Below, piece after piece: positions 2,102-16,794 of a stretch of DNA of 64,000 nt. A program made the translations under genes and the position numbers. The DNA is taken from the NCBI GenBank assembly GCA_020721445.1, contig DYMU01000001.1, forward strand, positions 248,001 to 312,000, given 5' to 3'. Every line of letters starts with the position of its first letter. Positions within the stretch are counted from its first letter, which is position 1. This stretch comes from Gemmobacter nectariphilus (lineage in GTDB: Bacteria > Pseudomonadota > Alphaproteobacteria > Rhodobacterales > Rhodobacteraceae). The notes beneath the pieces were generated by a model that did no database searches, was not told the DNA's origin, and worked only from the letters and a program-made list of their open reading frames with translations.

Positions 2102-3355
2102 TCAGCCGTCCACGCCGCCCAAGCCCGCCGTCCGGAACCAGCGCACGATGGCACGGCGTTCCTCCGGCTCGATATGGCTCAGGTTGCCCGGCGGCATGGC
2201 ATGGCTGATCCCGGCCTGCAAGTAGATGCGCCTTGCCTCGGCCGCGATTTGCGCCTCGGTTTCCAGCAGCACGCCCTTGGGCGGCCAATACATCCCGTCC
2301 CAGGCTGGCTCTGCCGCGTGGCACATGGCGCAGCGGCCCTGCACGATGGCCACCACATCTTCAAACCCCGGTGCCGCCGCATGCTGCAAGGCGGCCTGCG
2401 ACAGGCCCGCCCCTTCCGCTACGCTCGCTGTCTCCGCCTCGACCGACGGCTTCGCGGTGGACAGCCAGGCAATCGCCACAAACAGCACCACCGTTGCCGC
2501 CCATGTCCAATAGGGGCTGCCGCTGCGCGCGTGCCGGGAATTGAACCAATGCCGGATCGTCACCCCCATCAGGAACACCAGACTTGCGATGACCCAGTTA
2601 AACTCGGTCGCAAACACCAGCGGATAGTGGTTCGACAGCATCAGGAACAGCACCGGCAGCGTCAGATAGTTGTTATGCGTGCTGCGCTGCTTGGCGATCT
2701 TGCCATATTTCGGGTCGGGCTTGCGGCCTGCCTTCAGGTCGGCCACCACGATCCGCTGATTGGGCATGATGATGAAAAACACATTGCCGGTCATGATGCT
2801 GCCGGTAAACGCCCCCAGATGCAAAAGCGCCGCCCGGCCGCTGAACACTTGGGTATAGAACCACGACATCCCCACCAGCACCACAAACAGCGCCAGCATC
2901 AGCACCGTCTGATCGGCATTCACAAACACCTTGCACAGCGTGGTATAGGCGATCCAGCCAAAGGCAAGGCTGGCCACCGAAATCGCCACCGCCTGCCAGA
3001 CCTCCAGCTCCAGCACCGCAGGATCGATCAGATACAACTCGGCCCCCAGGTAATAGACCAGGATCAGCATGGCGAACCCGGTCAGGAAGGTCGCATAGCT
3101 TTCCCATTTGAACCAGGTCAGGTGCTCGGGCATCATCGCCGGGGCCACCAGATACTTCTGGACATGATAGAACCCGCCGCCATGCACCTGCCATTCCTCG
3201 CCATGCGCCAGCGGTGGCAGGCTGGGGGTCTTGCGCAGGCCAAGGTCCAACGCCACGAAATAGAACGAGGACCCGATCCAGGCGATCACCGTGATCACAT
3301 GCGTCCAGCGCATCGCAATCTCGATCCACTCCCACAGCACGGCCGCGTCATACAT
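2102..3355 (-). CDS. puuD: Membrane urate hydroxylase PuuD with C-terminal cytochrome c domain
   Basis: This 417-residue protein is a PuuD-type urate oxidase that converts urate to 5-hydroxyisourate and passes electrons to the respiratory chain instead of to oxygen. The first about 300 residues hold seven to eight hydrophobic helices with conserved histidines (DUF989-type domain). The C-terminal about 110 residues carry one haem c motif, CAMCH, with a downstream Met in AMPPGNLS as likely axial ligand. I chose the ATG at 3355 because GGGGAGA precedes it; the open frame continues upstream without membrane-protein character. The neighbours uraH, puuE-uraD, allE and allA are the following steps of urate breakdown. 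No soluble cofactor-free uricase is seen. Confidence 0.9.
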   Translation of the reverse strand: MYDAAVLWEWIEIAMRWTHVITVIAWIGSSFYFVALDLGLRKTPSLPPLAHGEEWQVHGGGFYHVQKYLVAPAMMPEHLTWFKWESYATFLTGFAMLILVYYLGAELYLIDPAVLELEVWQAVAISVASLAFGWIAYTTLCKVFVNADQTVLMLALFVVLVGMSWFYTQVFSGRAALLHLGAFTGSIMTGNVFFIIMPNQRIVVADLKAGRKPDPKYGKIAKQRSTHNNYLTLPVLFLMLSNHYPLVFATEFNWVIASLVFLMGVTIRHWFNSRHARSGSPYWTWAATVVLFVAIAWLSTAKPSVEAETASVAEGAGLSQAALQHAAAPGFEDVVAIVQGRCAMCHAAEPAWDGMYWPPKGVLLETEAQIAAEARRIYLQAGISHAMPPGNLSHIEPEERRAIVRWFRTAGLGGVDG

Positions 3356-3477
3356 GCGCAATCTCCCCTGACCTTCTCCGCAAGCTATAGCCGGGCAGCC
3401 CGTTCTGTTCACCTTGCGATTTCGCGCGCCGCCTGCAAATGCCCCCGCCCGGCGGATCTTGCACAGATGTCCCGCAT

Positions 3478-3495
3478 CATATTCCCGAGGATATG
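3478..3495. promoter_or_regulatory. Candidate operator palindrome upstream of puuD
   Basis: CATATTCCCGAGGATATG pairs at seven of nine positions and lies about 120 bases upstream of the puuD start. Its size suits a dimeric repressor. No regulator gene for purine breakdown is visible in the window. Confidence 0.35.
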
Positions 3496-3767
3496 CAAAA
3501 CTGTCCATGAATCGGGCAGCTTGAGTCCGCCTGCCCATGATCCAAGCAACCACACCCCTCGCCCCGACGCGCCCCAAGCCGCAGTCGGCCCTGCGCCTCC
3601 CGGCCATGGCCGACATGTCTTTACACCGCAGCGCGTCAGGTCCGAAACCTAACGACAACACCAAAGCGACACCGCCGCCAGACCACAGCCAGCGGTAGTT
3701 TCCCGATATCCACAAGACAAAATCCAAAATGCCCCGCGCCGGACCAATTACAGACCGCGACGCCGGT

Positions 3768-3824
3768 TTCCTCTTGGAAAAAATACCCCCGGGGGTGCGG
3801 GGGCAGGCAGCCCCCGCTCTTTTT
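3768..3824 (+). repeat. Dispersed intergenic repeat, copy 2, with terminator-like hairpin
   Basis: TTTCCTCTTGGAAAAAATACCCCC is the repeat head in a long-hairpin variant; the first bases match copies at 8247 and 14569. It is followed by GCGGGGGC (3797-3804), a five-base loop, GCCCCCGC (3810-3817) and then a T-rich run, which is a good intrinsic terminator on the plus strand. No plus-strand gene lies upstream of it. Confidence 0.6.
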
Positions 3825-3837
3825 CGAACAAACAACA

Positions 3838-3864
3838 GGACCGGGCCGTCTTCCGGCCCGGTCC
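3838..3864 (-). terminator. Intrinsic terminator after the DUF2125 gene
   Basis: GGACCGGGCC and GGCCCGGTCC form a 10-bp stem with a seven-base loop, 25 bases beyond the stop codon. The minus-strand transcript then enters a U-rich stretch. Confidence 0.75.
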
Positions 3865-3888
3865 TTCCGTCAGATCACCGCTGGCGGT

Positions 3889-5367
3889 TTACTGAATCTG
3901 CTGGCCGTTCACAAAGATCGACCCGCCTTCCTTGGCCTCGATGGTCGAGGTCAGCACGTCCTCGCCCGCCGGCTTGCCGAACATCGCCATCATCATCCGC
4001 GCGCCCATCGCATCGTCGGCTGTCATCAGCCCCATGGCAATCAGCCCGTCGATCAGCTTGTTGCCGCCCTCCAGGCGCACATCTGCCGTGCCCAGCGGCA
4101 TCGGCGGGCCACCGGCGGCCACCATCGAATTGTCAAAGGTGAACGCGCCGGTCCCCGACAGCGCCGCGCCGGCCAGCTTCACGGCCAGGGTGCGAATGTC
4201 CACCGTCTGCACTTCCGGCATGACTTGCGGCGGTCGCCCCGCCTCGTTCGCCTGCATCAGATCCAGCGTGTCGATTTTGGCCAGCCCGCCCAGGTCCAGC
4301 GTCAGGTCGGCAGGACCGTGGTCCAGCGCCCCTGACGGATCGACCATGCTCCACGCGCCGTCATCCAGCGTCAGATTGGCAATGCCCAGGGTCAGCGCGT
4401 ATTCGCCGGCTTCTTCCACCGCGACCATCGGCATGGCAAAGCCCATCGCGAAAGCATCGGCCGTGGCATTGACCGCCGCCGGCACCATCGGCGGACGCGC
4501 GGTTACGGCCATCCCGTCGACCGTGGTGTCAAAGCTGACCTCGTCGGCGTTCAGCACCATCGAGGTGGTGCCCGGTTGGGCCGCGAAGGCAAGGCTCATC
4601 GGCACCATCGGGTTGTTGTCCACCAGATCACCGGTCGACACGCCCTGCGTGGCCTCGAACGTGATCCCCAAACCGGCGCGGGCGGCGGCAAAAACCGCCG
4701 GGGCATCTTTCAACGACATCAGATCAATGCCCTCGGGCAAGGTCACTTCGCCGGTCAGGTCCAGATCGGCGGTGTCGCTGACCTGCGCGCTGTCAATGCC
4801 AAGCGACGCATCCTTCTGCTTGATGTCATAGACCAGCCGCTCGGCCGAAAGGCCAAGACCAAGGGCTTGAAGGCCGCGCGTATAGCGACCGGCGATCCCG
4901 GTCAGATCAAAGGTTCCGTCAAAGCTCTTGGCCGTCGCATCGGCCCCTTCGGCGATCGCCACGGCGATCTTCAGGCTGTCGGCGTCAAGGCCATAGCCCA
5001 TGCCGCCGGCATCCTCATACAGGCTCAGCGACAATTCCTCATGGTCAACCGTCACCTTGGCGGGAGCGGTGTTTTCCAGCCTGATATCACCGGGGAACAG
5101 GGCCACGCTGCCATCCTCCTGTTCAACAAGGGAAATCTCTGACACGGTGGCAATCGCAGGCCCCCCGTCCGGCGCGATGCTGACACCATTCAGCGTCAGT
5201 TCGCGGTCGCCCGCAACTTGGGTCGCGACCGTGATCTTCAACCCACCGGCGATGGCCGAGGCCTGAAGGTCCGCCCAGACCTGATCCACCGTCAGCGCCG
5301 CCTGCGCCGTGCCGCACATCAGAAGCGCCATCACCGGCGCCGCCATGAAAACCGAACTCCGAACCAT
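3889..5367 (-). CDS. DUF2125 domain-containing secreted protein
   Basis: This 492-residue protein begins with a signal peptide (MVRSSVFMAAPVMALLMCG, cleavage after AQA) and should be exported. The rest matches my recollection of the DUF2125 family: a long run of beta-strand-like segments with no cysteine pairs, no membrane span and no catalytic motif I can name. Its function is unknown. I chose the ATG at 5367 because a GGGAGAG site lies just upstream and the signal peptide begins there; the frame stays open further upstream but codes nothing typical. It sits between puuD and uraH on the same strand, but it has its own terminator and may not belong to the purine pathway. Confidence 0.8.
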   Translation of the reverse strand: MVRSSVFMAAPVMALLMCGTAQAALTVDQVWADLQASAIAGGLKITVATQVAGDRELTLNGVSIAPDGGPAIATVSEISLVEQEDGSVALFPGDIRLENTAPAKVTVDHEELSLSLYEDAGGMGYGLDADSLKIAVAIAEGADATAKSFDGTFDLTGIAGRYTRGLQALGLGLSAERLVYDIKQKDASLGIDSAQVSDTADLDLTGEVTLPEGIDLMSLKDAPAVFAAARAGLGITFEATQGVSTGDLVDNNPMVPMSLAFAAQPGTTSMVLNADEVSFDTTVDGMAVTARPPMVPAAVNATADAFAMGFAMPMVAVEEAGEYALTLGIANLTLDDGAWSMVDPSGALDHGPADLTLDLGGLAKIDTLDLMQANEAGRPPQVMPEVQTVDIRTLAVKLAGAALSGTGAFTFDNSMVAAGGPPMPLGTADVRLEGGNKLIDGLIAMGLMTADDAMGARMMMAMFGKPAGEDVLTSTIEAKEGGSIFVNGQQIQ

Positions 5368-5455
5368 GCCGCTCTCCCGATCAAGCGAATTTCCATGCGC
5401 GAGACAGAACCCCGAAACGGCTTGCGGCGCAAGGCCCGGTTTCAAACGCCTTCGA

Positions 5456-5809
5456 TCAACTGCCGCGATAGGTCGAATAGGCAAAAGGCGAGATCAGCAA
5501 CGGCACATGGTACTGCGCGCCCGCGTCCGGCACGCCAAAGCGGATCGGGATCTGGTCCAGAAACAGCACCTCGCCCTTGGCCTGCCCGGTTGCCCGCAGA
5601 TAATCCCCGGCAAAAAACACCAGCTCATAACTCCCGACCTTCAGGTCATCGCCAGACAGCAGCGGCGCATCGGTGCGGCCATCGGCATTGGTCATCACCT
5701 CGGCAAGCTTCGTGTGGCTGTTGCCACTGACCCGATACAGCCGGATTTTCACCCCCGCCGCCGGCTTTCCCTGCGCCGTATCCAGCACATGCGTCGAAAG
5801 TCGCCCCAT
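5456..5809 (-). CDS. uraH: 5-hydroxyisourate hydrolase (transthyretin-like)
   Basis: This 117-residue enzyme hydrolyses 5-hydroxyisourate, the product of PuuD, to OHCU. Family hallmarks are all present: LSTHVLD at the N-terminus with the catalytic His, a central Arg in ADGRTDAP, a late His in QYHVPLL, and the C-terminal YRGS tetrapeptide that separates these enzymes from transthyretin. The length is normal for the family. There is no signal peptide, so it acts in the cytoplasm. The gene is divergent from the puuE-uraD fusion across 144 bases, which probably hold both promoters. Confidence 0.95.
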   Translation of the reverse strand: MGRLSTHVLDTAQGKPAAGVKIRLYRVSGNSHTKLAEVMTNADGRTDAPLLSGDDLKVGSYELVFFAGDYLRATGQAKGEVLFLDQIPIRFGVPDAGAQYHVPLLISPFAYSTYRGS

Positions 5810-5953
5810 TTTTCCGGCCTCCCTGATTGCGTCGCTTGCATCACAGCACAAAATCCGCGCTCCTGCGACAGCATCGCTGCACCCGACGGGATGCAAATTC
5901 CGCTTGAAACCCATCCGGCCAAGCCCGAGTCTGATCTGCACCAACGCCTGAAC

Positions 5954-7393
5954 ATGAGGTTTGCCTTGCCCTCGTCGCCCCCCCGCTACCCTCGCGATTT
6001 CCGCGGTCATGGCCCCACCCCCCCCGATGCGCAGTGGCCGGGCGGGGCGCGCATCGCGGTGTCCATCGTGCTGAACTATGAAGAGGGTGGCGAAAACAAC
6101 CTTCTGCACGGCGATGCCCAGTCCGAGGCCTTCCTGTCCGACATCGCCGGGGCTGCCCCTTGGCCGGGGATGCGGCACTGGAACATGGAATCGATCTATG
6201 AGTACGGTGCCCGCGCCGGGTTCTGGCGCCTGCACCGGCTGTTCACCGATCGCGGGCTTCGCGTCACTGTCTTCGGCGTCACCTCGGCGCTTGCCCGCAA
6301 CCCCGAACAACTGGCGGCGATGCAGGCGGCAGGTTGGGAAATCGCCAGCCACGGGTTGAAATGGGTCGATCACCGCGACATGCCCGAAGACGTGGAACGC
6401 GCGCAGATCGCCGAGGCGTTCCGCCTGCACGCCGAGGTGACAGGCCAGCCCCCGCAAGGCTGGTACACCGGGAGGTGCAGCATGAACACCGTCCGCCTGA
6501 CGGCAGAAACCCGTAAACTGGCATGGATTTCCGACGCTTACGACGATGACCTGCCCTATTGGCTGGAACTGGGCAACCATGACCAACTGGTCATTCCCTA
6601 CACGCTTGAAGCCAACGACATGCGCTTTGCCACGGCGCCGGGCTACATCACGGGCGAGCAGTTTTTCCAATACCTGAAAGACAGCTTCGACACGCTTTAC
6701 GCCGAAGGTCAGGACGGCCGCGCCAAGATGTTTTCCATCGGCCTGCACAACCGCCTGATCGGACGACCGGGCAAGATCGCCGGCCTGAAACGCTTTCTCG
6801 ACCATGCGCAGGCGCATGACGGCGTCTGGTTCCCCCGCCGCATCGACATTGCCCGCCATTGGGCGGCAACCCACCCGCACCGCCGGTTTGAGCGTCCCAG
6901 CCAGATGGACAGCGCCCGTTTCGTCGCCCGCTTTGGCAGTATCTTCGAGCACAGCGCATGGATCGCCGAGCGCGCCCATGATCTGGAACTCGGCCCGGCG
7001 CATGATTGCGCCACCGGCCTGCACAACGCCCTTGCCCGGATGTTCCGCAGCGCATCGCAGGACGAACGGCTTGGCGTCTTGCAGGCCCACCCCGACCTTG
7101 CCGGAAAGCTCGCCACCGCCAAGCGGCTGACGCCTCAATCCACCGCCGAACAGGCCAGCGCCGCGCTTGATGCCCTGACGGATGCCGAACGCGCAACCTT
7201 TCAGGCCCTCAACACCGCCTATGTTGCCAAGCACAGCTTTCCCTTCATCATCGCCGTGCGGGACAACAGCAAGGACAGCATCCTTGCCGCCTTCCACGCC
7301 CGCATCGCCAATGACACCGCCACCGAGTTCGCCACCGCCTGCGCGCAAGTCGAACGTATCGCCGAACTGCGCCTGAAGGATCTCCTGCCATGA
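5954..7393 (+). CDS. puuE: Fused allantoinase PuuE and OHCU decarboxylase UraD
   Basis: This 479-residue protein joins two steps of urate breakdown. Residues 1 to about 310 form a metal-independent PuuE allantoinase of the polysaccharide-deacetylase fold, with the family block NYEEGGENNLLHGD near residue 37 and GWEIASHGLKWVDH; it opens allantoin to allantoate. Residues about 320-479 form an OHCU decarboxylase, with the active-site block AHPDLAGK, the TAEQASA segment and FPFIIAVRD; it makes S-allantoin from the UraH product. I took the ATG at 5954 since family similarity starts just after it, although its ribosome site is weak and an ATG about 63 bases upstream is possible. The stop overlaps the allE start (ATGA). 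The domain order is the reverse of the reaction order. Confidence 0.92.
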   Translation: MRFALPSSPPRYPRDFRGHGPTPPDAQWPGGARIAVSIVLNYEEGGENNLLHGDAQSEAFLSDIAGAAPWPGMRHWNMESIYEYGARAGFWRLHRLFTDRGLRVTVFGVTSALARNPEQLAAMQAAGWEIASHGLKWVDHRDMPEDVERAQIAEAFRLHAEVTGQPPQGWYTGRCSMNTVRLTAETRKLAWISDAYDDDLPYWLELGNHDQLVIPYTLEANDMRFATAPGYITGEQFFQYLKDSFDTLYAEGQDGRAKMFSIGLHNRLIGRPGKIAGLKRFLDHAQAHDGVWFPRRIDIARHWAATHPHRRFERPSQMDSARFVARFGSIFEHSAWIAERAHDLELGPAHDCATGLHNALARMFRSASQDERLGVLQAHPDLAGKLATAKRLTPQSTAEQASAALDALTDAERATFQALNTAYVAKHSFPFIIAVRDNSKDSILAAFHARIANDTATEFATACAQVERIAELRLKDLLP

Positions 7394-8232
7394 CCACCTA
7401 CGCCGGCCCGATCGACGGCCTACCGTCCCAAACCGCCCTGCACACCGGACGGGCGGTGTTCACCGAAAGCTATGCCGTCATTCCGCGCGGCGTGATGTCG
7501 GATATCGTCACCAGCTACCTGCCGGGCTGGCATGCCACCCGCGTCTGGATCATCGCACGGCCCATGTCGGGCTTTTCCGAAACCTTCTCGCAATACATTC
7601 TCGAGCTGGACGCGGGCGGCGGCTCGAACAGCCCCGAACCCGATGACGGCGTCGAAGGCGTGCTGTTCGTCACCTCTGGCAAGCTGACCCTGACGCTGAA
7701 CGGCACCACGCACGCCTTGGCCGAAGGCGGCTATGCCTACCTGCCCCCGGCCGCCAGATGGACCCTGCACAACACCGGCGCCGCACCCGCCCGCCTTCAC
7801 TGGATCCGCAAGCTTTATGAGCCCGCCCCCGGCCTGCCCGCCCCCGATGCCTTTGTCACCAATGACCAGCACGTCACCCCCGGCGCGATGCCGGGCACCA
7901 TGGGGCGCTGGGCCACCTCGCGCTTTGCCGACCCGCGCGATCTGCGCCACGACATGCACGTCAACATCGTCACCTTCCAACCCGGCGGCCTGATCCCGTT
8001 TGAGGAAACCCATGTCATGGAACACGGGCTTTATGTTCTGGAAGGCAAGGCCGTCTATCGGCTCAACCGCGACTGGGTCGAGGTCGAGGCCGGCGATTTC
8101 ATGTGGCTGCGCGCCTATTGCCCGCAGGCCTGCTATGCCGGCGGTCCCGGACCCTTCCGTTACCTGCTCTACAAGGATGTGAACCGCCACGCCAAACTGC
8201 GCGGCCCCGGCGGCTTCGGCCCGATGCGTTGA
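7390..8232 (+). CDS. allE: (S)-ureidoglycine aminohydrolase (bicupin)
   Basis: This 280-residue cytoplasmic enzyme removes ammonia from (S)-ureidoglycine to give (S)-ureidoglycolate. It has two cupin halves. The C-terminal half holds a manganese-binding pattern around FEETHVMEHGLYVLEG near residues 205-220, and the N-terminal half is degenerate, as is usual in this family. The length is normal. Its ATG overlaps the stop of the puuE-uraD gene, and allA follows 95 bases later, so the three lie in pathway order in one transcript. Allantoate amidohydrolase, which would supply ureidoglycine, is not in the window. Confidence 0.9.
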   Translation: MTTYAGPIDGLPSQTALHTGRAVFTESYAVIPRGVMSDIVTSYLPGWHATRVWIIARPMSGFSETFSQYILELDAGGGSNSPEPDDGVEGVLFVTSGKLTLTLNGTTHALAEGGYAYLPPAARWTLHNTGAAPARLHWIRKLYEPAPGLPAPDAFVTNDQHVTPGAMPGTMGRWATSRFADPRDLRHDMHVNIVTFQPGGLIPFEETHVMEHGLYVLEGKAVYRLNRDWVEVEAGDFMWLRAYCPQACYAGGPGPFRYLLYKDVNRHAKLRGPGGFGPMR

Positions 8233-8246
8233 ACCCAGCCCCGCTG

Positions 8247-8304
8247 ATTTCCTCTTGGTCCAAATACCCCACGGGGGGTCTGGGGGGTGTGAAACCCCCC
8301 AGCC
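8247..8304 (+). repeat. Dispersed intergenic repeat, copy 3, with hairpin
   Basis: TTTCCTCTTGGTCCAAATACC is the repeat head here, written from 8248. It is followed by CTGGGGGG (8280-8287), a seven-base loop and CCCCCCAG (8295-8302). There is no T-run, so allA may still be transcribed through it from the allE side. Confidence 0.7.
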
Positions 8305-8327
8305 TTCGCCAGCCAAAGGTGCAACCG

Positions 8328-8804
8328 ATGCAAAGCCTTCGCCCCGCCCCGCTGACCGCCGATGCCTTTGCCCCCTTCGGCGATGTGCTCGACGCGACCG
8401 GCGACTTTCGCCTGATCAATGCCGGGCTCTGCCAGCGCCACCACGACCGCGCCCGGCTTGACTTCGGTCCCGAAGGCCGTGCCGGGATTTCGATCTTTCT
8501 CGCCGAAGCCCGCAGCCTGCCCTATCGCTTTGACCTGATCGAGCGCCACCCCGACGGCAGTCAGACGTTCATCCCGATGACGCAAGCGCCGTTTCTGGTC
8601 ATCGTCTCGCAGGGCCCCGACCACCGGCCGCAAGCCTTCCTCACCAATGGCGCGCAGGGCATCAATCTGCACCGGGGCATCTGGCATGGCGTGCTGACAC
8701 CGCTGCACGCCCCCGGCCTGTTCGCCGTGATCGACTGCATCGGTCCCACACCGAACCTTGAAGAACACCGCTTCCCGCAGATGTGGACCGTTCTCGCCGC
8801 CTAG
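8328..8804 (+). CDS. allA: Ureidoglycolate lyase
   Basis: This 158-residue enzyme splits (S)-ureidoglycolate into glyoxylate and urea, the last step of this ureide branch. The protein has the typical AllA layout: PLTADAFAPFGDVL at the start, a central block ending RHPDGSQTFIPM, and INLHRGIWHGVLTPL with the conserved histidines near residues 110-118. It matches the family in length. The start follows AAAGGTGCAACCG. It lies downstream of allE with a hairpin-bearing repeat between them. Its glyoxylate product is the substrate of the bhc enzymes encoded 3.5-7 kb further on. Confidence 0.93.
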   Translation: MQSLRPAPLTADAFAPFGDVLDATGDFRLINAGLCQRHHDRARLDFGPEGRAGISIFLAEARSLPYRFDLIERHPDGSQTFIPMTQAPFLVIVSQGPDHRPQAFLTNGAQGINLHRGIWHGVLTPLHAPGLFAVIDCIGPTPNLEEHRFPQMWTVLAA

Positions 8805-8918
8805 CGGCCCGGGCACAGCCAGCGCGCGCCTCTCTGGCAGGGCCGCGCCGCGGCAGCAAATCCCTGTAAAACCCCGCAGATGTCTTTATGCTGGCCGCAC
8901 CGCAACCCGGAGGCAAAG

Positions 8919-10184
8919 ATGCTTGACCGCTCTCACCCAGGCCCATTGATCCCCACCCTGCCCGGTGGCCCGCGTCCGGGCCTGTGCACCGATTGCGGCG
9001 TGTCGCGTCTGGGTGACGGCAAAGCCTGCGGCAAGGCCTGCCAATTCATCGCCCCCGATTATCCCGCGCTGGAAACCGCCGTTCATGGCCGCACTGTCAA
9101 CCCCGACACCGATGAGGCGTTCTTCGGCGTCACCCACACCATGCTGCGCGCGCGCCTGTCGCCCGCCGCCCCCGGCGCGCAATGGACCGGCATCACCACC
9201 ACCCTTGCTGCCGAGCTGTTGCGCCAGGGTCTGGTCGATGCCGTCCTGACCGTGCTGCCCGACCCCGCCGACCGCTGGAAACCGCTGCCCGCCATCATCA
9301 CCTGCCCCGAGGATATGGCAAAGGCCCGTGGCATGCGCATGGGCTGGGCCCCGACGCTGGCCCTGCTGGAACCGGCCCGCGCGGCAGGCCACACCCGCCT
9401 TGCGATGATCGGCATCCCCTGCCAGACCTACGCCCTGCGCGCGGTTGAGGCCGAGTTGGGGCTGGATGCGCTCTACATCATCGGCACACCCTGCTCCGAC
9501 AACACCACCACCCAGAACTTCCACACTTTCCTCAACCTGCTTGACCCTGCCCCCGAAACCATCAGCTATCTGGAGTTTCGCGCCGATTTCCGGGTGGAAT
9601 TGCGCTTTGACGATGGCCGCAAACCACGCTTCATCCCGTTTTTGCAACTGCCGATCAGCCAGTTGCCGCCCGACTTCTTCCCGATGACCTGCAAGACCTG
9701 CGTCGATTACACCAACCGGCTGGCCGACATCACCGTGGGCTATATGGGCGGCGACGGCGACCAATGGGTCATTGCCCGCAACGCCCGCGGCGCTGCCATG
9801 CTGGCGCTGATCGCGCCGCAACTGACCACCGCGCCCCTGACCAGTTCCGGCAAGCGTGAAGCGGCGGTCAAGGGCTTCCTGGAAAACACCGCCCGCGCCG
9901 CTGGCGGCTTGCCCCTTCGCCGCATGCCGAACTGGTTGCGCCCGCTGGTCAGCCTCATGCAAACCCGGTTCGGCCCCAAGGGGCTGGAATTCGCCCGCAC
10001 AAGGGTCGAGATGAAGGCGATCGAAACCATTCTGCACCTGCGCCGCGCCCACCCGGCCCGGATGAAGAACATGATCCCCGACCACGTCTGGCGCGTCGCC
10101 GCCCGCTATGGCTTGGTGCCGGCCCCGGAGGAGAAACGCCCCGCGCAAACGCCGCCGTCGGATGCCTCCGGCGGGAGTATTTGA
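8919..10184 (+). CDS. BciB/FrhB-type iron-sulfur flavoprotein reductase
   Basis: This 421-residue protein belongs to the coenzyme F420 hydrogenase/dehydrogenase beta-subunit family and looks closest to the BciB/HCAR branch, known for divinyl-chlorophyllide and hydroxymethyl-chlorophyll reduction. C23, C26, C37 and C41 form an N-terminal cluster motif (CTDCG, then CGKAC). Further Cys occur in GIPCQTYALR, GTPCSDN and MTCKTCVDYTN, the last followed by LADITVGYMGGDGDQW. It should bind FAD and 4Fe-4S clusters. A strong GGAGG site sets the ATG at 8919. No other pigment gene is nearby, so its substrate here is unknown. The last residues (SDASGGSI) and the stop codon lie inside a dispersed repeat, so the natural C-terminus has been rewritten by it. 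Confidence 0.8.
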   Translation: MLDRSHPGPLIPTLPGGPRPGLCTDCGVSRLGDGKACGKACQFIAPDYPALETAVHGRTVNPDTDEAFFGVTHTMLRARLSPAAPGAQWTGITTTLAAELLRQGLVDAVLTVLPDPADRWKPLPAIITCPEDMAKARGMRMGWAPTLALLEPARAAGHTRLAMIGIPCQTYALRAVEAELGLDALYIIGTPCSDNTTTQNFHTFLNLLDPAPETISYLEFRADFRVELRFDDGRKPRFIPFLQLPISQLPPDFFPMTCKTCVDYTNRLADITVGYMGGDGDQWVIARNARGAAMLALIAPQLTTAPLTSSGKREAAVKGFLENTARAAGGLPLRRMPNWLRPLVSLMQTRFGPKGLEFARTRVEMKAIETILHLRRAHPARMKNMIPDHVWRVAARYGLVPAPEEKRPAQTPPSDASGGSI

Positions 10185-10193
10185 AAAGCAGCA
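10166..10193 (-). repeat. Dispersed intergenic repeat, copy 4 (inverted)
   Basis: CCTCCGGCGGGAGTATTTGA is the reverse of the core found elsewhere and supplies the stop codon of the upstream gene. It faces copy 5 to make a long hairpin. Confidence 0.7.
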
Positions 10194-10226
10194 TGCCCAA
10201 GGATTTGCTGCTTTGCCAAATACTCC
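10174..10226. terminator. Bidirectional hairpin made by two facing repeat copies
   Basis: GGAGTATTTGAAAAGCAGCA (10174-10193) can pair with TGCTGCTTTGCCAAATACTCC (10206-10226, split here as TGCTGCTTT, GC, CAAATACTCC) with a 12-base loop. It lies between two convergent genes, where a two-way terminator would be useful. Confidence 0.55.
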
Positions 10227-10250
10227 GGGGGTTTGGGGGCAGCGCCCCCA
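10206..10250 (+). repeat. Dispersed intergenic repeat, copy 5
   Basis: The core TTTGCCAAATACTCC is followed by GGGGGC, a short loop and GCCCCC. The copy is oriented opposite to copy 4. Confidence 0.7.
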
Positions 10251-10327
10251 TCGCAAGGCCAAGGGCCGCAGGACCGCAGGCGACAGATCAGCATGCGCCA
10301 ACGGCGCTCTGACGGGTCACCCGCCGG

Positions 10328-11302
10328 TCAGGTCATCCGCAAGGCGACATCCAGCATCCGGTTGGAAAAGCCCCATTCGTTGTCATACCAGCCAAACACC
10401 CGCAGCAGGCCGCCCCGGGTCAGCCGGGTTTCGGGTGTGGCCATCACAATGCTTTCGGCCCGTGCCCGCAGGTCGGTGGACACCAGCGCCCGGTCGGTCA
10501 CGCCGATCACCCCGCCGGCAGAGTGGAAAGCCGCATTCACGTCCTCAACACGCGGCACCCGGTCGGTCATCACAACCAGATCGACGCAGGACACGCTGGC
10601 CACCGGCACCCGCACCGCCGATCCTTCGATCCGTCCTGCAATCTGCGGCAGCACCTTGTCCAGCAGGCGCGAGGCGCTGGTGGTGGTGGGCACCATCGAC
10701 AGCGCCGCCGCCCGACTGCGGGCAAAATCCGCGCCCGGCGCATCTATCGTCGGCTGGCTTCCCGTATAGCAATGGATCGTCGTCATCGATCCGGTGACCA
10801 CGCCCCACTGCGCGTCGATCAGCTTCACCAAAGGCGCCAGCGCATTGGTTGTGCACGACGCATTCGACACAATCCGCGCCGCCCCCAACGCCGCCTCGTT
10901 CGCGCCCAGCACCACCGTCACCCCGGCAGCAGCCGACGGCCCCGAGATCAGCACCCGTGACGCCCCGCCGCGCAGCCCGCGTTCGGCAACCTCAATCCTG
11001 TCAGCGCGCCCGGTGCATTCCATCACCACATCGACGCCCGCCAGCCCCAGCGTCGACAGGTCTGGCGTCCGGTGCAGCGGGATCACGTGCCCATTCACGA
11101 CCAGCGCACCGTCTTGCAAGACAACGGTCCCGCGCCATGGGCCAAATACGCTGTCGTATTCGAACAGATGCGCGCACATCTCGGGTGCTGCGATATCGTT
11201 GATGCCGGCAACCTCCAGCCCGGGCCACCGCGCGGGCTCTTGTGCCCAGGCCCGCAACACCGACCGCCCGATCCGGCCAAATCCGTTGATGAATATGCGC
11301 AT
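10328..11302 (-). CDS. Glyceraldehyde-3-phosphate dehydrogenase-like protein
   Basis: This 324-residue protein is a type I GAPDH homolog. It has the N-terminal NAD motif INGFGRIGRS, the acidic NAD-specificity residue in GINDIAA, the catalytic Cys in SNASCTTN near residue 150, the base His in TTIHCYTGSQ, and the C-terminal WYDNEWGFSNRM. It is clearly off the main glycolytic branch: SCTTNALAP replaces the usual SCTTNCLAP, and the phosphate-site block reads SMVPTTTSAS. A GGAGG site sets the ATG at 11302. It follows bhcD on the same strand after 84 bases, so cotranscription with the bhc operon is possible. Its substrate could be glyceraldehyde-3-phosphate, erythrose-4-phosphate or another aldehyde; I cannot decide. 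Confidence 0.82.
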   Translation of the reverse strand: MRIFINGFGRIGRSVLRAWAQEPARWPGLEVAGINDIAAPEMCAHLFEYDSVFGPWRGTVVLQDGALVVNGHVIPLHRTPDLSTLGLAGVDVVMECTGRADRIEVAERGLRGGASRVLISGPSAAAGVTVVLGANEAALGAARIVSNASCTTNALAPLVKLIDAQWGVVTGSMTTIHCYTGSQPTIDAPGADFARSRAAALSMVPTTTSASRLLDKVLPQIAGRIEGSAVRVPVASVSCVDLVVMTDRVPRVEDVNAAFHSAGGVIGVTDRALVSTDLRARAESIVMATPETRLTRGGLLRVFGWYDNEWGFSNRMLDVALRMT

Positions 11303-11386
11303 GACTTGCCTCCGACTTGCCGCAGGTTCAGCACGCCGCAAAGGCGCAGGCAAGCGCGGCATTGTCAGGGTCACAAGGTTCCGGGC

Positions 11387-12346
11387 CTAGACCTCGACCG
11401 TCACACCCTGGCCGCGTTCCACGGCGCGCTGCACCGCCATCGCCGCCACCGCCAGGTCCTGCAAGCCAACCCCGGTGCCATCAAACAGCGTGATCTCCTC
11501 GGCTGAGCGCCGCCCCGGATGCTTGCCGATCAGCACATCGCCCAACGGCGTGATCGCCGATGCCGCCAGCAGACCCGCCGCCACCGCATGCTGTGCCTCG
11601 CCAATCGTGACCGATTGTGCGACCTCATCGGTGAAAACCACAGCCCGGCCCAACAGCGCGGGTTCCACCTCTTGCTTGCCGATGGTATCGGTGCCCATGC
11701 AGGCCAGATGCGTGCCAGGGGCCACATGCGCCGACATCAGGCTGGCGGCAGGGCTTGAGGTGATGGTCACGATCACATCGGCCTCGACCATCCGCTCCAG
11801 CGGCACCGCCTCGAACGGCAAGCCCAGTTCGGCGGCAATCTCGCCCAGCTTCGGCAGCATGTCGGGGTGCAGGTTCCACGCGATCACCCGCTCGAACTGC
11901 CGCACCCTTGCTGCCGCGCGCAACTGGAACCCGGCCTGATGGCCTGCCCCAACCATGCCCAGCACCTTCGCATCGCGCCGCGCCAGCCGGTCAATCGAAA
12001 TCGCACTGGCCGCCGCCGTGCGCAGTGCTGTCAGCAAGCCACCGCCCACCATGGCCGTGGGCCGCCCGGTCTCGGGATCAAACAGAAACACCGTGGACTG
12101 GTGATTGATGATCCCGCGCGCCGCATTGCCCGGAAAATACCCCCCGGCCTTCACGCCCAACTGCCCCGACGACCGGTCCAGCCCGGACTTGAAGCCATAC
12201 AGCCGACCCTCGCCCAAGGCCTCGCGCACCACGGGGAAGTTATACGCCTCGCCGCGTGACATGGCGGCAAAGGTCGCCTCGACCGCCGCAAAGGCATCCT
12301 CCGGCGACACCAACCCCGCAATCAGCGCCTCTGGAACGATCCGCAT
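11387..12346 (-). CDS. bhcD: Iminosuccinate reductase BhcD
   Basis: This 319-residue protein is of the ornithine cyclodeaminase/mu-crystallin family. In the beta-hydroxyaspartate cycle BhcD reduces iminosuccinate to L-aspartate with NADH, which regenerates the amino donor. Visible features are the substrate-binding GLDRSSGQLGVKAGG block with its Lys, the dinucleotide motif GMVGAGHQAG near residues 130-139, and the family segment TSSPAASLMSAHVAPGTHL. Sequence alone would allow other cyclodeaminase-family functions. The BhcD call depends on its position as fourth gene behind bhcA, bhcB and bhcC with no unrelated gene between them. The ATG at 12346 follows GAAAGGG. Confidence 0.9.
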   Translation of the reverse strand: MRIVPEALIAGLVSPEDAFAAVEATFAAMSRGEAYNFPVVREALGEGRLYGFKSGLDRSSGQLGVKAGGYFPGNAARGIINHQSTVFLFDPETGRPTAMVGGGLLTALRTAAASAISIDRLARRDAKVLGMVGAGHQAGFQLRAAARVRQFERVIAWNLHPDMLPKLGEIAAELGLPFEAVPLERMVEADVIVTITSSPAASLMSAHVAPGTHLACMGTDTIGKQEVEPALLGRAVVFTDEVAQSVTIGEAQHAVAAGLLAASAITPLGDVLIGKHPGRRSAEEITLFDGTGVGLQDLAVAAMAVQRAVERGQGVTVEV

Positions 12347-12356
12347 CGGGCAGCCC

Positions 12357-12392
12357 TTTCTCTTTCCAAAAATATCCCCGCCGGAGGCTTCC
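12357..12392 (+). repeat. Dispersed intergenic repeat, copy 6 (bhcC-bhcD gap)
   Basis: CTTTCCAAAAATATCCCCGCC with GGAGG after it is a diverged copy. It fills most of the gap between bhcC and bhcD. Confidence 0.55.
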
Positions 12393-12421
12393 ACGCTGCC
12401 GCGAAAGCCCCCGGGTCAGGA

Positions 12422-13585
12422 TCAATAGGCCTTGCCGCGTGCAGAAACCGGCCAGACCACTTCCACCTTGCCGCCGCGCACGCCGACATACCAGTCATGC
12501 ACGTTGCAGGTCGGGTCACAGTGGCCGGGCACCAGCTTCAGCTTGTCGTTGACCTTCAACACGCCATTGGGATCTTCCACCACGCCATGCTCGTCGCTGC
12601 ACTTGACGTATTTCACATCCGTGCGGCCAAAGATCACCGGAAGGCCCGAATCCACCGACTGCGTCTTAAGACCCGCATCGACAATGGCCTTGTCGGCTTT
12701 GGCGTGGCTCATCACCGAAGTCAGCAGGAACAGCGCGTTTTCCCACTCACCCTGATCAATGCGCTTGCCATCCTTGTCCAGAATCCGGCCATAGTCGGCG
12801 TCCATGAAGGCATAGCTGCCACACTGCAACTCGTTGTAAACGCCCGAGGTGCTTTCGAAATAATAGCTGCCGGTGCCACCGCCGCCGACGATGTCACACG
12901 CAATGCACATCGCGCCCAGCGTGTCCACCGCATCCTTGACCTGCGCCACCGCCAGCTCGATCTTGGCCTTGCGGTCGGCGTAAGAGTCCATGTGCTGCAT
13001 CGCGCCCTGATAGGCCTGGATGCCGGCAAACTTCAGACCGGGCGCCGCATCAATCGCCTTGGCCAAGGCCACCACTTCGGGCGTGGTCTTCACACCGCAG
13101 CGCCCGGCACCGCAGTCGATTTCCACCAGGCACTCGATCTGCGTGCCATGTTTCACCGCCGCTGCCGACAGATCGGCCACATTGTCCAGCATGTCGACGC
13201 AGCAAATGGTCCGCGCGCCCAGCTTTGGCATCCGCGCCAGCCGGTCGATCTTGGCCGGGTCGCGCACCTGGTTGCTCACCAGCACGTCCTTGATGCCACC
13301 CCGGGCAAATACCTCGGCCTCGCTCACCTTCTGGCAGCACACACCGACCGACCCACCCAGCCGTTCTTGCAACTTGGCCACATCCACCGATTTGTGCATC
13401 TTGCCATGCACCCGGTGCCGCATGCCATGGCTGCGCGCATAGTCGCCCATCTTCTTGATGTTGCGTTCCAGCGCGTCCAGATCCAGCACCAGGCAGGGCG
13501 TCTGGATATCGGCCTCATCCATCCCCGGCAAGGCAGGAATGTCGTATCCCACTTCCAGACCTTCGAAATCAGCGTGCTTGTTCAT
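12422..13585 (-). CDS. bhcC: Beta-hydroxyaspartate aldolase BhcC
   Basis: This 387-residue PLP enzyme of the fold III, D-threonine aldolase/D-serine dehydratase type joins glycine and glyoxylate to give (2R,3S)-beta-hydroxyaspartate. The PLP lysine is most likely K62 in RVHGKMHKS. The C-terminal block PGHCDPTC (H355, C356, C360) marks the metal-binding site next to PLP. QTPCLVLDLDALERNI near residue 28 is the usual start of the barrel domain. The gene begins four bases after the bhcB stop with GAAAGGG as ribosome site, so the two are tightly linked. Alone it could be annotated as a D-amino-acid aldolase; the operon fixes its role. Confidence 0.95.
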   Translation of the reverse strand: MNKHADFEGLEVGYDIPALPGMDEADIQTPCLVLDLDALERNIKKMGDYARSHGMRHRVHGKMHKSVDVAKLQERLGGSVGVCCQKVSEAEVFARGGIKDVLVSNQVRDPAKIDRLARMPKLGARTICCVDMLDNVADLSAAAVKHGTQIECLVEIDCGAGRCGVKTTPEVVALAKAIDAAPGLKFAGIQAYQGAMQHMDSYADRKAKIELAVAQVKDAVDTLGAMCIACDIVGGGGTGSYYFESTSGVYNELQCGSYAFMDADYGRILDKDGKRIDQGEWENALFLLTSVMSHAKADKAIVDAGLKTQSVDSGLPVIFGRTDVKYVKCSDEHGVVEDPNGVLKVNDKLKLVPGHCDPTCNVHDWYVGVRGGKVEVVWPVSARGKAY

Positions 13586-13589
13586 GGTG

Positions 13590-14561
13590 TTACCCTTTCA
13601 TCCAAGGCAAATTATCCAGATCGACGTTCCCTCCGGTGATGATGACGCCCACGCGCCGCCCCCGGAACACGTCCTTGTTCTTCAGAATGGTGGCCAGCGG
13701 CACGGCGCAGCTTGGCTCCATCACGATCTTCATCCGCTTCCAGGTCAGCTTCATCGCCTCAATGATCTCGTCTTCGGTCGCGGTGAAGATATCGGTCACA
13801 TGGTTCGACACGAAATGCCAGGTCAGGTCTTTCAGCGGCACCTTCAACCCGTCGGCCACCGTTTCGGGCGCATCATCGGCAATGATATGCCCGGCCTTGA
13901 AACTGCGATAGGCATCATCGGCGTTCAAGGGCTCGGCGGCATAGATATCAACCCCCGGCGCGATCGTCGACAGCGTCAGGCAGGTGCCCGAGATCATGCC
14001 GCCGCCGCCAATCGGCGCGATCACCGCGTCCAGACCCTCAACCTGCTCCATCACCTCGCGCGAACAGGTCGCCTGCCCGGCAATCACCCGCGGGTCGTTG
14101 TAGGGATGCACGAAATCACCGCCGCTGCGCGCCTGCACCTGGGCAAACACCTCTTCGCGGCTGCTGGTCGACGGCTCGCATTCGGTGATCACCCCGCCAT
14201 AACCCCGCACCGCATCCTTCTTGGCCTGTGGTGCCGTGCGCGGCATCACCACATTGCACGGGATGCCCCGCCGCCCCGCCGCATAAGACAGGCTCAGCGC
14301 ATGGTTGCCGCTGGAATGGGTGCAAACGCCGGCACGCGCCTGCTCATCGGTCAGCCCGAACACCGCGTTGCAGGCCCCTCGCACCTTGAACGCGCCCGCC
14401 TTCTGAAAGTTCTCGCATTTGAAGAACAGTTCCGCCCCGGTCAACTCGTTGAAATAGCTCGAGGTCAGCACCGGCGTGCGATGAATATAGGGGCGGATAC
14501 GGTCATGCGCCGCGATCACGTCGTCAAAGGTAGGCACATACATCGGGGTCAGATCCTTCAT
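13590..14561 (-). CDS. bhcB: Beta-hydroxyaspartate dehydratase BhcB
   Basis: This 323-residue PLP enzyme of the threonine dehydratase/serine racemase fold removes water from beta-hydroxyaspartate to give iminosuccinate. The PLP lysine is K59 in AGAFKVRGA, the substrate loop is SSGNHALS near residue 84, and the phosphate-binding glycine loop is PIGGGGMISG. No C-terminal ACT regulatory domain is present, which fits the short catabolic members of the family. The start uses ACGAGAG, and a GAGG further upstream lies within the repeat that separates it from bhcA. Threonine or serine dehydratase would be the default name without the neighbouring bhc genes. Confidence 0.95.
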   Translation of the reverse strand: MKDLTPMYVPTFDDVIAAHDRIRPYIHRTPVLTSSYFNELTGAELFFKCENFQKAGAFKVRGACNAVFGLTDEQARAGVCTHSSGNHALSLSYAAGRRGIPCNVVMPRTAPQAKKDAVRGYGGVITECEPSTSSREEVFAQVQARSGGDFVHPYNDPRVIAGQATCSREVMEQVEGLDAVIAPIGGGGMISGTCLTLSTIAPGVDIYAAEPLNADDAYRSFKAGHIIADDAPETVADGLKVPLKDLTWHFVSNHVTDIFTATEDEIIEAMKLTWKRMKIVMEPSCAVPLATILKNKDVFRGRRVGVIITGGNVDLDNLPWMKG

Positions 14562-14568
14562 GCTCTCG

Positions 14569-14630
14569 TTTTTCCTCTTGGCCCAAATACCCTCGGGGGG
14601 TCCGGGGGGCAGACAGCCCCCCGGCCTTTT
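14569..14630 (+). repeat. Dispersed intergenic repeat, copy 7, with hairpin between bhcA and bhcB
   Basis: TTTTTCCTCTTGGCCCAAAT opens this copy. It carries CCGGGGGGC (14602-14610), a five-base loop and GCCCCCCGG (14616-14624), then CCTTTT. The bhc transcript (minus strand) must pass through it. Confidence 0.75.
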
Positions 14631-14633
14631 CCT

Positions 14634-15824
14634 TCACTCCGCCGCCAGCGCCATCGCGCGGGCAGAGCCGCGATAATACTCTTGCGCCGCCGCCACGCCA
14701 GACCCAAGCCGGATGTTCCAGCCCAGATCAGCCATGCACATCTCGGCAGCGGCCAGACCCGACAACACCATCACATCGGTCAGCATCCCAAGATGGCCGA
14801 TGCGGAACACCTTGCCCGCAACCTCGCCCAGACCGACGCCAAAGGCCACATCGTATTTCTCGGCCGCAAGCTTCACCAGATCGGTGCCGTTGCACCCCTC
14901 TGGCACCACCACGGCGGTGATGGTATCCGAATACAGGTCGGGCGACACCGCACATGGCGTCATCCCCCAGGCCGCCACGGCCCGGCGCACGCCTTCGGCA
15001 AGACGGTGGTGTCGGGCATAGACATTGTCCAGCCCCTCATCCTCCAGCACCTCAATGGCGCGGGCCAGACCGGCGATCAGACCGACAGCGGGGGTATAGG
15101 GATAGCCGCCCGCCGCATAGCTGCGCAGCATGTCGCGGAAATCAAAGAAGGTGCGCGGCAGGGTGGCGGTGTCCATCGCGGCAATCGCCTTCGGGCTGAC
15201 GCCCAGAATGGCCAGACCCGCAGGCAACATAAAGCCCTTCTGGCTGCCGGCCACCGCAATATCGACTCCCCAGCCGGCCATGTCGAACGGCATCGACCCG
15301 ATCGACGACACCCCATCAACCAGCAGCAGCGCGTCATGCCCCGCCGCGTCCATTGCGCGGCGGATGCCGGCGATGTCGGACCGCACGCCGGTGGCGGTTT
15401 CATTGTGCGTGGCCAGCACGGCCTTGATCGTGCCCGTCTTGTCGGCCTTCAACGCCGCCTCGATGGCGGCAATCGGCGCGCCTTGCCCCCAGGGGGTTTC
15501 GATGATCTGCACCTTCAGCCCATGGCGCTGGCACATGTCGATCCAGCGGTGGCTGAACATTCCGAACCGCGCGGCCAGAACCGTGTCGCCGGGCGACAGG
15601 GTGTTGCTGATCGCCGCTTCCCAGCCGCCGGTGCCGGTCGATGGCAGGATGATCACCTCGCCCTCGCCCATCTTCAGCACCCGCTTCACCCCAGCGACCG
15701 CCGGTTTGAACAGACGGGCAAAGGCCGGGCTGCGGTGGTCGATGGTGGGCATGTCGCAGGCCTTGCGCACCACCTCGGGCATATTGGTCGGGCCAGGGAT
15801 GAAAACGGGGTTCTGGGAATACAT
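14634..15824 (-). CDS. bhcA: L-aspartate:glyoxylate aminotransferase BhcA
   Basis: This 396-residue class V PLP aminotransferase moves the amino group of aspartate to glyoxylate, giving oxaloacetate and glycine. It is both the entry and exit point of the cycle. The internal aldimine lysine is K196 in AGSQKGFML. FIPGPTNMPE at the N-terminus and the PSTGTGGWEAA phosphate loop near residue 61 match alanine/serine-glyoxylate aminotransferases. A strong GGAGGTG site fixes the ATG at 15824. It heads the bhcABCD operon, is divergent from bhcR, and has a readable promoter. Serine-glyoxylate aminotransferase would be the alternative name without this context. Confidence 0.95.
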   Translation of the reverse strand: MYSQNPVFIPGPTNMPEVVRKACDMPTIDHRSPAFARLFKPAVAGVKRVLKMGEGEVIILPSTGTGGWEAAISNTLSPGDTVLAARFGMFSHRWIDMCQRHGLKVQIIETPWGQGAPIAAIEAALKADKTGTIKAVLATHNETATGVRSDIAGIRRAMDAAGHDALLLVDGVSSIGSMPFDMAGWGVDIAVAGSQKGFMLPAGLAILGVSPKAIAAMDTATLPRTFFDFRDMLRSYAAGGYPYTPAVGLIAGLARAIEVLEDEGLDNVYARHHRLAEGVRRAVAAWGMTPCAVSPDLYSDTITAVVVPEGCNGTDLVKLAAEKYDVAFGVGLGEVAGKVFRIGHLGMLTDVMVLSGLAAAEMCMADLGWNIRLGSGVAAAQEYYRGSARAMALAAE

Positions 15825-15852
15825 GTCGGCACCTCCGGGGTTTGTTGACAGG

Positions 15853-15881
15853 ACATTAGGCGATGTCCCCCTGCGCTGCAA
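15853..15881 (-). promoter_or_regulatory. bhcA promoter
   Basis: Read on the minus strand, TTGCAG (15876-15881) and TAATGT (15853-15858) are 17 bases apart and precede bhcA by about 29 bases. The -35 element overlaps a TGCGCTGC octamer (15872-15879). Confidence 0.65.
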
Positions 15882-15885
15882 TTTT

Positions 15886-15935
15886 TTCGAAATGATTTTT
15901 CATTATGCCACGACCATGCTATTTTCGCCTGAAAT
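15886..15935. promoter_or_regulatory. Candidate BhcR operator region
   Basis: Two inverted repeats lie in the bhcA-bhcR gap: AATGA-TTTT-TCATT at 15891-15904, just upstream of the bhcA -35, and ATTTTCGCCTGAAAT at 15921-15935. IclR-family regulators usually bind such palindromes between themselves and the target operon. I cannot tell which one is used. Confidence 0.45.
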
Positions 15936-15978
15936 CAAGGCACAGGTGTTTTTCATCCGATCTGAAAGGGTTTTTCCC

Positions 15979-16794
15979 ATGACACAGCCCCCCCGTCCGC
16001 GTGGCCGCCCCAAGGCGTTTTTCGACAAGACCGACCAGAACACCGTGCAGGCGCTGGACCGCGGCCTTGCGCTCTTGGAACGGCTGGCGGCCAAACCCGG
16101 CATGACCCTGTCCGATCTGGCGGCCGAAAGCGGCGAGGCGGTGGCGACAGTGTTTCGCGCGCTGGTCACGCTGCAAGGCCACGCCATGGTCGAGGTCGAG
16201 GAACCCGGCCAGTTGTGGCATGTCGGGCCGGGGGCGTTTCGCGTCGGCACGGCGTTCTTGCGCCGCACCAAGGTGGTTGAACGCGCCCGGCAACCGATGG
16301 ACCGGCTGATGCGCGACACCGGAGAGACCGCCAATCTGGGGATCGAGGCCGGCGACGAGGTGCTGTTCCTGAGCCAGATCGAGACGCATGAGGTGATCCG
16401 CGCCTTCTTTCCGCCCGGCACCAAGGCCCCGATGCATGTGTCGGGCATCGGCAAGGCGCTGCTGGCCTGGTATCCGCCGGACCGGGTCAAGCGCCTGATT
16501 GCCGCCAAGGGGCTGGAGCGGTTCACCAGCCTTAGCCACACCTCCGAGGGGACGCTGTTGCGCGATCTGGCCCGCACGCGCGAAAGGGGCTTTGCCATTG
16601 ATGATCAGGAACGCGCGGAAGGCATGCGCTGCGTGGCCGCCCCGATCTTCAACAGCCATGCAGAGCCGGTGGCGGGGCTGTCGGTGTCGGGTCCGGCCTT
16701 TCGCATGGGGGTGTCGGATGCGGGCCGCATCGGGGCGCTTGTCCGCGCCGCCGCCGATGAGGTGACAGAAGCCACCGGCGGCGTGCAGCCCTGA
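15979..16794 (+). CDS. bhcR: IclR-family regulator BhcR
   Basis: This 271-residue transcription factor has an N-terminal winged helix (about residues 25-85, TLSDLAAESGEAVATVFRAL) and a C-terminal IclR effector domain with MHVSGIGKALLA and GFAIDDQERAEGMRCVAAPI. Its Paracoccus counterpart is known to respond to glyoxylate and to control the bhc genes. The basic N-terminal tail PRPRGRPKAF may add DNA contacts. GAAAGGG precedes the ATG by about ten bases. It is divergent from bhcA across 154 bases, the same arrangement as in Paracoccus denitrificans. Confidence 0.92.
   Translation: MTQPPRPRGRPKAFFDKTDQNTVQALDRGLALLERLAAKPGMTLSDLAAESGEAVATVFRALVTLQGHAMVEVEEPGQLWHVGPGAFRVGTAFLRRTKVVERARQPMDRLMRDTGETANLGIEAGDEVLFLSQIETHEVIRAFFPPGTKAPMHVSGIGKALLAWYPPDRVKRLIAAKGLERFTSLSHTSEGTLLRDLARTRERGFAIDDQERAEGMRCVAAPIFNSHAEPVAGLSVSGPAFRMGVSDAGRIGALVRAAADEVTEATGGVQP

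Follow-up and report, generated by a model that had tools for sequence, protein, structure and literature searches.

Ureide breakdown genes beside the beta-hydroxyaspartate cycle in Gemmobacter nectariphilus and its relatives: a probable purine catabolic locus of two modules

What is the beta-hydroxyaspartate cycle, known as a marine glycolate route, doing next to genes of purine breakdown? The question is raised by a stretch of 64,000 nucleotides from Gemmobacter nectariphilus (the window), in which the ureide genes puuD, uraH, puuE-uraD, allE and allA neighbour bhcA to bhcD and their regulator gene bhcR. After comparison with other genomes of the Rhodobacteraceae, we hold with good confidence that this region is a two-module purine catabolic locus, linked via shared glyoxylate. 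The first module, together with xdhABC, would take xanthine and urate to allantoin, and from there through allantoate to ureidoglycolate, which AllA would cleave to urea and glyoxylate; the second, the cycle itself, would turn two glyoxylates into one oxaloacetate without loss of CO2. The glyoxylate from AllA would be consumed by BhcA and BhcC and would also be the effector of BhcR. Purine-derived glyoxylate very likely enters the cycle, because the proximity of the ureide and bhc genes is conserved, because bhc is found in other arrangements with other purine genes elsewhere, and because no glyoxylate carboligase scored above its cut-off in the family genomes compared.

The coordinates and identities given to these genes in a preliminary description of the window hold against family profiles and Pfam (profile scores in bits, with the cut-off of the model in brackets):

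2102-3355, minus strand: puuD, membrane urate oxidase (urate to 5-hydroxyisourate); Pfam PF06181, 439 bits; start chosen in the analysis
5456-5809, minus strand: uraH, 5-hydroxyisourate hydrolase; TIGR02962, 128.5 (87)
5954-7393, plus strand: puuE-uraD fusion, allantoinase and OHCU (2-oxo-4-hydroxy-4-carboxy-5-ureidoimidazoline) decarboxylase; TIGR03212, 500 (425), and TIGR03164, 196 (96)
7390-8232, plus strand: allE, (S)-ureidoglycine aminohydrolase; NF008373, 502 (445), and NF040771, bifunctional allantoicase/(S)-ureidoglycine aminohydrolase, 477 (350)
8328-8804, plus strand: allA, ureidoglycolate lyase, predicted to release glyoxylate and urea; Pfam PF04115, 173 bits; best NCBIfam model 238, below its cut-off (260)
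11387-12346, minus strand: bhcD, iminosuccinate reductase; NF045643, 533 (500)
12422-13585, minus strand: bhcC, 3-hydroxy-D-aspartate aldolase (glycine and glyoxylate); NF045642, 758 (690)
13590-14543, minus strand: bhcB, beta-hydroxyaspartate dehydratase; NF045641, 607 (550)
14634-15824, minus strand: bhcA, aspartate-glyoxylate aminotransferase; NF045640, 722 (650)
15979-16794, plus strand: bhcR, IclR-family regulator, divergent from bhcA; NF045644, 394 (350)

All five Bhc proteins thus exceed their own NCBIfam equivalog cut-offs, as do UraH, PuuE, UraD and AllE, while PuuD and AllA were identified via Pfam. The set for urate to allantoin (PuuD, UraH and UraD) is complete in the window. Genes for xanthine dehydrogenase, xdhA (597 bits, cut-off 467), xdhB (1197, 850) and xdhC (255, 162), are on the same contig some 15-20 kb upstream of puuD, so that a route from xanthine to oxaloacetate would be encoded within about 35 kb, an uncertain allantoate step excepted. 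The adjacency of the two modules is as described earlier, with an FrhB-like gene and a glyceraldehyde-3-phosphate dehydrogenase (GAPDH)-like gene, gap, separating the blocks. Since puuE-allE-allA-frhB are on the plus strand and gap-bhcDCBA on the minus strand, the two blocks converge and are neighbours rather than one operon.

The comparison covered 295 genomes of the family, the window's own included and nearly one per genus, in which BhcC was found in 153, AllA in 271 and PuuE-UraD in 277. Stretches of up to 20 kb around bhcC gave, among the matches listed, 140 regions from 137 other genomes, the own genome and nine matches of low identity or partial length being excluded, and 15 window proteins served as queries against them. 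A region was called linked when it held at least one of puuE, allA and allE. Linked regions number 51 of the 140, with allA in 40, allE in 44, puuE in 37, uraH in 36, puuD in 31 and the GAPDH-like gene in 39. By our estimate chance would account for about one linked region in 140, 20 kb being some 0.5% of a 3.8-Mb genome, the 140 regions not being independent owing to shared ancestry. Among regions with complete bhcABCD, 45 of 119 are linked, or 36 of 90 where more than 8 kb lies on either side of bhcC, short contigs depressing these counts; conversely, the full bhcABCD is present in 45 of the 51 linked regions, with bhcR as well in 44. Control genes were rare in the same 140 regions (parC 2, znuA 1, the FrhB-like gene 3, glcD 1, alpha-hydroxy acid oxidase 1, pckA 0) while the ureide genes recur, and therefore general synteny has been lost where the ureide link persists. 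The adjacency is genuine, far beyond what chance would give, and retained or rearranged in several lineages; the conserved proximity that the preliminary description had looked to is borne out, at 51 regions against 0 to 3 for each control. One region scored as unlinked (L094) has a xanthine permease, guaD and xdhC close to bhc, and its contig also carries allA, some 15 kb away from bhcC.

The order of the genes differs between the two large branches of relatives. On the window's branch allE comes after puuE, and the ureide block is mostly on the bhcD side, being on the bhcR side in two regions (L022 and L074). On the other branch the usual order is puuD, lysR, uraH, puuE, allA, NCS2 permease, (gap), bhcDCBA, bhcR, allE. 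In 20 of the 140 regions a complete bhc set is flanked by allE and, at its opposite end, by puuE or allA, so that bhc there lies inside the ureide cluster; allE faces bhcR at 11-119 bp in 28, and a LysR gene stands beside bhc in 31, of which 28 are linked. On a plasmid of Ruegeria sp. THAF33 allE and bhcR even overlap, and xdhA is found one gene past puuD; on a Leisingera plasmid this set recurs with modABC alongside, xdhA being absent from the stretch, and Rhodobacteraceae SC52 has the same gene set in a different order. Sulfitobacter OXR-159 carries puuD, lysR, uraH, puuE, allA, permease, gap and bhcDCBA, with bhcR and allE not annotated at the locus and transposases there instead. In Pseudosulfitobacter DSM 107133 bhc is flanked on one side by xdhB, xdhC, guaD and allE, and its bhcC and bhcD are separated by an NCS1 transporter. 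Two of the 140 regions (L100, L129) have an NCS1-family transporter in this position too; for those of L100, L129 and L233:10358-11758 the best model is an allantoin permease, below cut-off.

These arrangements bear on a competing account, namely that bhc serves glycolate as published, with purine glyoxylate a minor side input and the adjacency left over from an ancestral gene order. Growth of Paracoccus denitrificans on glycolate and glyoxylate depends on bhcR and bhcABCD, according to the text of PMC11323563, and linkage is partly clustered on a FastTree tree of BhcA-D (116 rows, linkage state scored for 97). However, at least 17 switches between linked and unlinked are needed to account for the 97 rows, a count that does not separate gain from loss, and together with the two main orders (allE by allA, or allE facing bhcR) this amounts to repeated rearrangement. 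Moreover glcD occurs in one bhc region and an alpha-hydroxy acid oxidase in one more, against 51 regions with ureide genes, and we consider the glycolate account unlikely. Glycolate oxidase as the usual neighbour of bhc was rejected, since glcD, glcE and glcF of Sinorhizobium and the glcD of the own genome, used as queries, found it in a single region of the 140.

Purine genes also adjoin bhc in other combinations. In P. denitrificans HAMBI_2443 a xanthine permease, an 8-oxoguanine deaminase, uraH and puuD (by family cut-offs or Pfam) follow bhcD on the same strand, the permease starting 41 bp after bhcD, a spacing that suggests read-through from bhcD into the purine genes. A consensus scan placed a terminator-like hairpin after uraH and none between bhcD and the permease (8 found, 5.2 expected). 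The order bhcD-permease-deaminase-uraH-puuD is the same in P. versutus and is annotated likewise in Paracoccus SMMA_5; Paracoccus Arc7-R13 is without these purine genes beside bhc. Methylobacterium radiotolerans and M. oryzae have an 8-oxoguanine deaminase, an NCS2 permease and a molybdopterin enzyme beside bhcD, and an uncultured Aurantimonas has bhcDCBA, bhcR, an NCS1 transporter, puuE, allE and allA, its ureide genes in another order. BhcC matches occur in 118 plasmid records, from which 19 stretches were chosen non-randomly; genes for purine or ureide breakdown are present in 11 of these, glcDEF in 2 and an alpha-hydroxy acid oxidase in 1, the remaining 5 having none of the three. The plasmid records, with some linked clusters among them, could be taken to mean that both modules are accessory catabolic islands, often plasmid-borne, that travel together without functional coupling. 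Yet other neighbouring or accessory genes do not recur by bhc (see the counts for glcD, parC and znuA above), the purine genes or their orders differ in Paracoccus, Methylobacterium and Aurantimonas, and the window's copy is on a 398-kb contig that also carries parC and pckA, which leaves such hitchhiking very improbable.

With regard to other fates of glyoxylate, a carboligase (gcl) above cut-off was found in none of the 295 genomes, the own genome included, the E. coli control being positive and the search, at E up to 1e-200, being one that would miss a diverged relative. The known glycerate branch therefore seems unavailable in the family.

How the two modules might be regulated together was approached with a matrix for the BhcR box, built from 83 of 113 bhcA-bhcR intergenic regions, the window's included, which gave one outstanding site:

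15878-15904, plus strand: candidate BhcR operator AATTTTTTYGAAAnnnTTTTTCA in the bhcA-bhcR intergenic region; matrix score 36.8 bits

The next best place in the window scores 3.6, and the best additional BhcR-like site has a median of 11.9 in 44 linked regions versus 11.2 in 70 unlinked ones. Direct co-regulation of the ureide genes by BhcR was thus rejected for the window, there being no comparable second site and the linked regions not being richer in them, though BhcR may reach the purine genes of Paracoccus by the read-through suggested above. In Paracoccus, the text of PMC11323563 reports, BhcR is needed for bhc expression and responds to glyoxylate; with glyoxylate as the effector, purine breakdown should induce bhc without any shared operator. 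We infer two switches in series, a regulator on the purine side followed by BhcR sensing the glyoxylate that results.

Several observations weigh against a purine role for the cycle. Complete bhc loci lack puuE, allA and allE in the stretch in 74 of 119 cases, more than 90% of the 295 genomes have ureide genes, compared with about half for bhcC, and a branch of 23 rows in the BhcA-D tree has no linked member. The 31-kb stretch of P. denitrificans has upper purine genes only, without puuE, allE and allA. Five of the 19 plasmid stretches, that of R. pomeroyi DSS-3 included, carry neither a purine breakdown gene nor glcDEF, and glcDEF-type genes adjoin bhc on plasmids of Sinorhizobium meliloti Rm41 and Rhizobium sophoriradicis (L240, L244); the own genome has a GlcD-like gene on another contig (450 bits, below the cut-off of 568). 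The matrix scan gave no BhcR-like box at the ureide promoters of the window and relatives. Finally, among the 80 best ureide loci of the genome collection, taken from 594 matches, which are the closest relatives and overlap with the set of bhcC regions, 67 have no bhc enzyme gene alongside, 11 have bhc (at least three of the four enzymes), 1 has part of it at the edge and 1 has bhcC alone; purine breakdown therefore does not need bhc nearby. As a separate observation, the glcDEF-bhc pairing on the two rhizobial plasmids is the one expected for glycolate.

The count of 67 in 80 also favours the possibility that purines serve as a nitrogen source rather than a carbon source, with a nearby bhc clearing toxic glyoxylate and salvaging two carbons. 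The purine ring holds at least four nitrogens and one assimilable two-carbon unit, and the 67 loci manage without bhc alongside. A cycle with a net yield of C4 nevertheless exceeds the needs of detoxification, and the linked regions mostly retain all four enzyme genes and the regulator. We regard this explanation as a serious but tentative one; it concerns the benefit and is compatible with the entry of purine glyoxylate into the cycle. Flux from purines through bhc, its induction by purines and an advantage to the cell are what we infer for the locus, and the advantage may be carbon gain, nitrogen with carbon salvage, or detoxification, each of which fits the neighbourhood evidence. Around the 80 ureide loci, the recurrent open reading frames, judged by eye from their first residues, include parts of xanthine dehydrogenase and permeases; no malate synthase or carboligase was seen among them, which is weak evidence as no library scan was made.

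Within the proposed two-module locus, the allantoate step has two candidates. A search for allantoicase found nothing, but neither did it give a match in the control genomes. The best protein of the own genome against the AllC model reaches 201 bits (cut-off 598), and the same protein passes the broad 'allantoate amidohydrolase' subfamily model (627, cut-off 452); because it adjoins an open reading frame that reads by eye as a dihydropyrimidinase, it may serve pyrimidine breakdown. In four plasmid records the counterpart of AllE next to bhc is named 'bifunctional allantoicase/(S)-ureidoglycine aminohydrolase'. Either the AllC-like protein or a bifunctional AllE may thus carry out the step. Between xdhABC and a znuB-like gene, the own genome also encodes a protein that matches sarcosine oxidase and GcvT-type models, each time below the cut-off (L252:13174-15675).

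Other features of the window comprise three genes in the gaps between puuD and uraH and between allA and bhcD, which the preliminary description did not mention, and pckA:

3889-5367, minus strand: DUF2125 protein, between puuD and uraH; Pfam PF09898, 30 bits; near bhc in 1 of the 140 regions
8919-10184, plus strand: FrhB/FdhB-like protein, between the ureide and bhc modules; PF04432, PF04422
10328-11302, minus strand: GAPDH-like gene (gap), adjoining bhcD; TIGR01534, 324 bits, below the cut-off of 367
31340-32938, plus strand: pckA; NF006822, 952 (806), about 14.5 kb from bhcR

On its other side bhcR is adjoined by parC. The three bhc regions with the FrhB-like gene all have a BhcC 93-94% identical to the window's. 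The GAPDH-like gene adjoins bhcD in 36 of its 39 regions and is also present in ureide clusters of Ruegeria that lack bhc; a role in gluconeogenesis, or in the supply of pyridoxal phosphate (PLP) to PLP enzymes, would be a guess. The preliminary description had oxaloacetate leaving the cycle through PckA. This part of its interpretation finds nothing in the genomes beyond general metabolism and, with pckA in none of the 140 regions, PckA was rejected as part of the unit; its core, purine glyoxylate as an input of the cycle, is strongly supported by the conserved and repeatedly rearranged neighbourhoods, while purines as a carbon source for the cycle would be one possible benefit among those named above.

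Partial bhc sets were also encountered. A lone bhcC lies directly beside allE on the same strand, without bhcA, bhcB and bhcD in the stretch, in four regions (L120, L135, L144, L148). These copies are 63-78% identical, two of the four passing the BhcC cut-off, and the best BhcB match in their genomes has only 33-36% identity; they may be remnants, or may encode an aldolase that uses ureide glyoxylate in a way of its own. In four other stretches bhcB and bhcC occur without bhcA (L126, L128, L130 and L239, the last being plasmid pSMR3-2 of Roseovarius mucosus). On pSMR3-2, a plasmid of conjugative type, they are accompanied by RidA proteins, an FAD oxidoreductase, a TRAP transporter and mercury genes. 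Such pairs perhaps allow hydroxyaspartate or D-amino acids to be taken up and used.

A bolder proposal, to which we give less than even weight, makes purine salvage a leading use of the cycle in Rhodobacteraceae, perhaps the one found most widely, and glycolate one input among several to a glyoxylate sink that can be exchanged. On this view bhc transcription in Paracoccus would continue into the xanthine permease, the 8-oxoguanine deaminase and uraH, and glyoxylate, acting through BhcR, would boost both the import of purines and the breakdown of urate in a loop that reinforces itself. The cycle is connected to purines by gene neighbourhoods across dozens of genera and also in P. denitrificans. 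By this route no purine-ring carbon other than glyoxylate can be assimilated, so that a CO2-sparing sink would set the carbon that bacteria gain from nucleobases at sea. As P. denitrificans is a model strain with published bhc deletions (described in the text of PMC11323563), the link is directly testable. The introduction of that paper names purines and allantoin as general sources of glyoxylate, and its main text contains none of the words 'urate', 'xanthine' and 'permease'. In the literature that it covered, our search found no paper on a purine-bhc linkage, though the figures or supplements of the original 2019 Nature paper may show neighbouring genes.

Among known systems, the closest parallel is the allantoin regulon of E. 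coli, in which the all genes are laid out with gcl-hyi-glxR. There as here, genes from allantoin to glyoxylate are joined to a module for glyoxylate assimilation under a glyoxylate-responsive regulator of the IclR family, which in E. coli is AllR (PMC11323563). Unlike in E. coli, the sink is the beta-hydroxyaspartate cycle, leading to oxaloacetate with no CO2 lost, carboligase above cut-off is absent from the 295 family genomes, and no operator common with the ureide genes was found. The locus resembles the P. denitrificans cycle in its five bhc genes above curated cut-offs and in a bhcR divergent from bhcA; that cycle is treated for glycolate and glyoxylate in the text of PMC11323563, and the purine link is the feature here. 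It also resembles the purine-ureide clusters of Rhodobacteraceae and other Alphaproteobacteria, which are made up of subsets of puuD, lysR, uraH, puuE-uraD, allA, allE, NCS2 permease and xdh; unlike most of them, as counted in the ureide survey, it is the variant that contains bhc.

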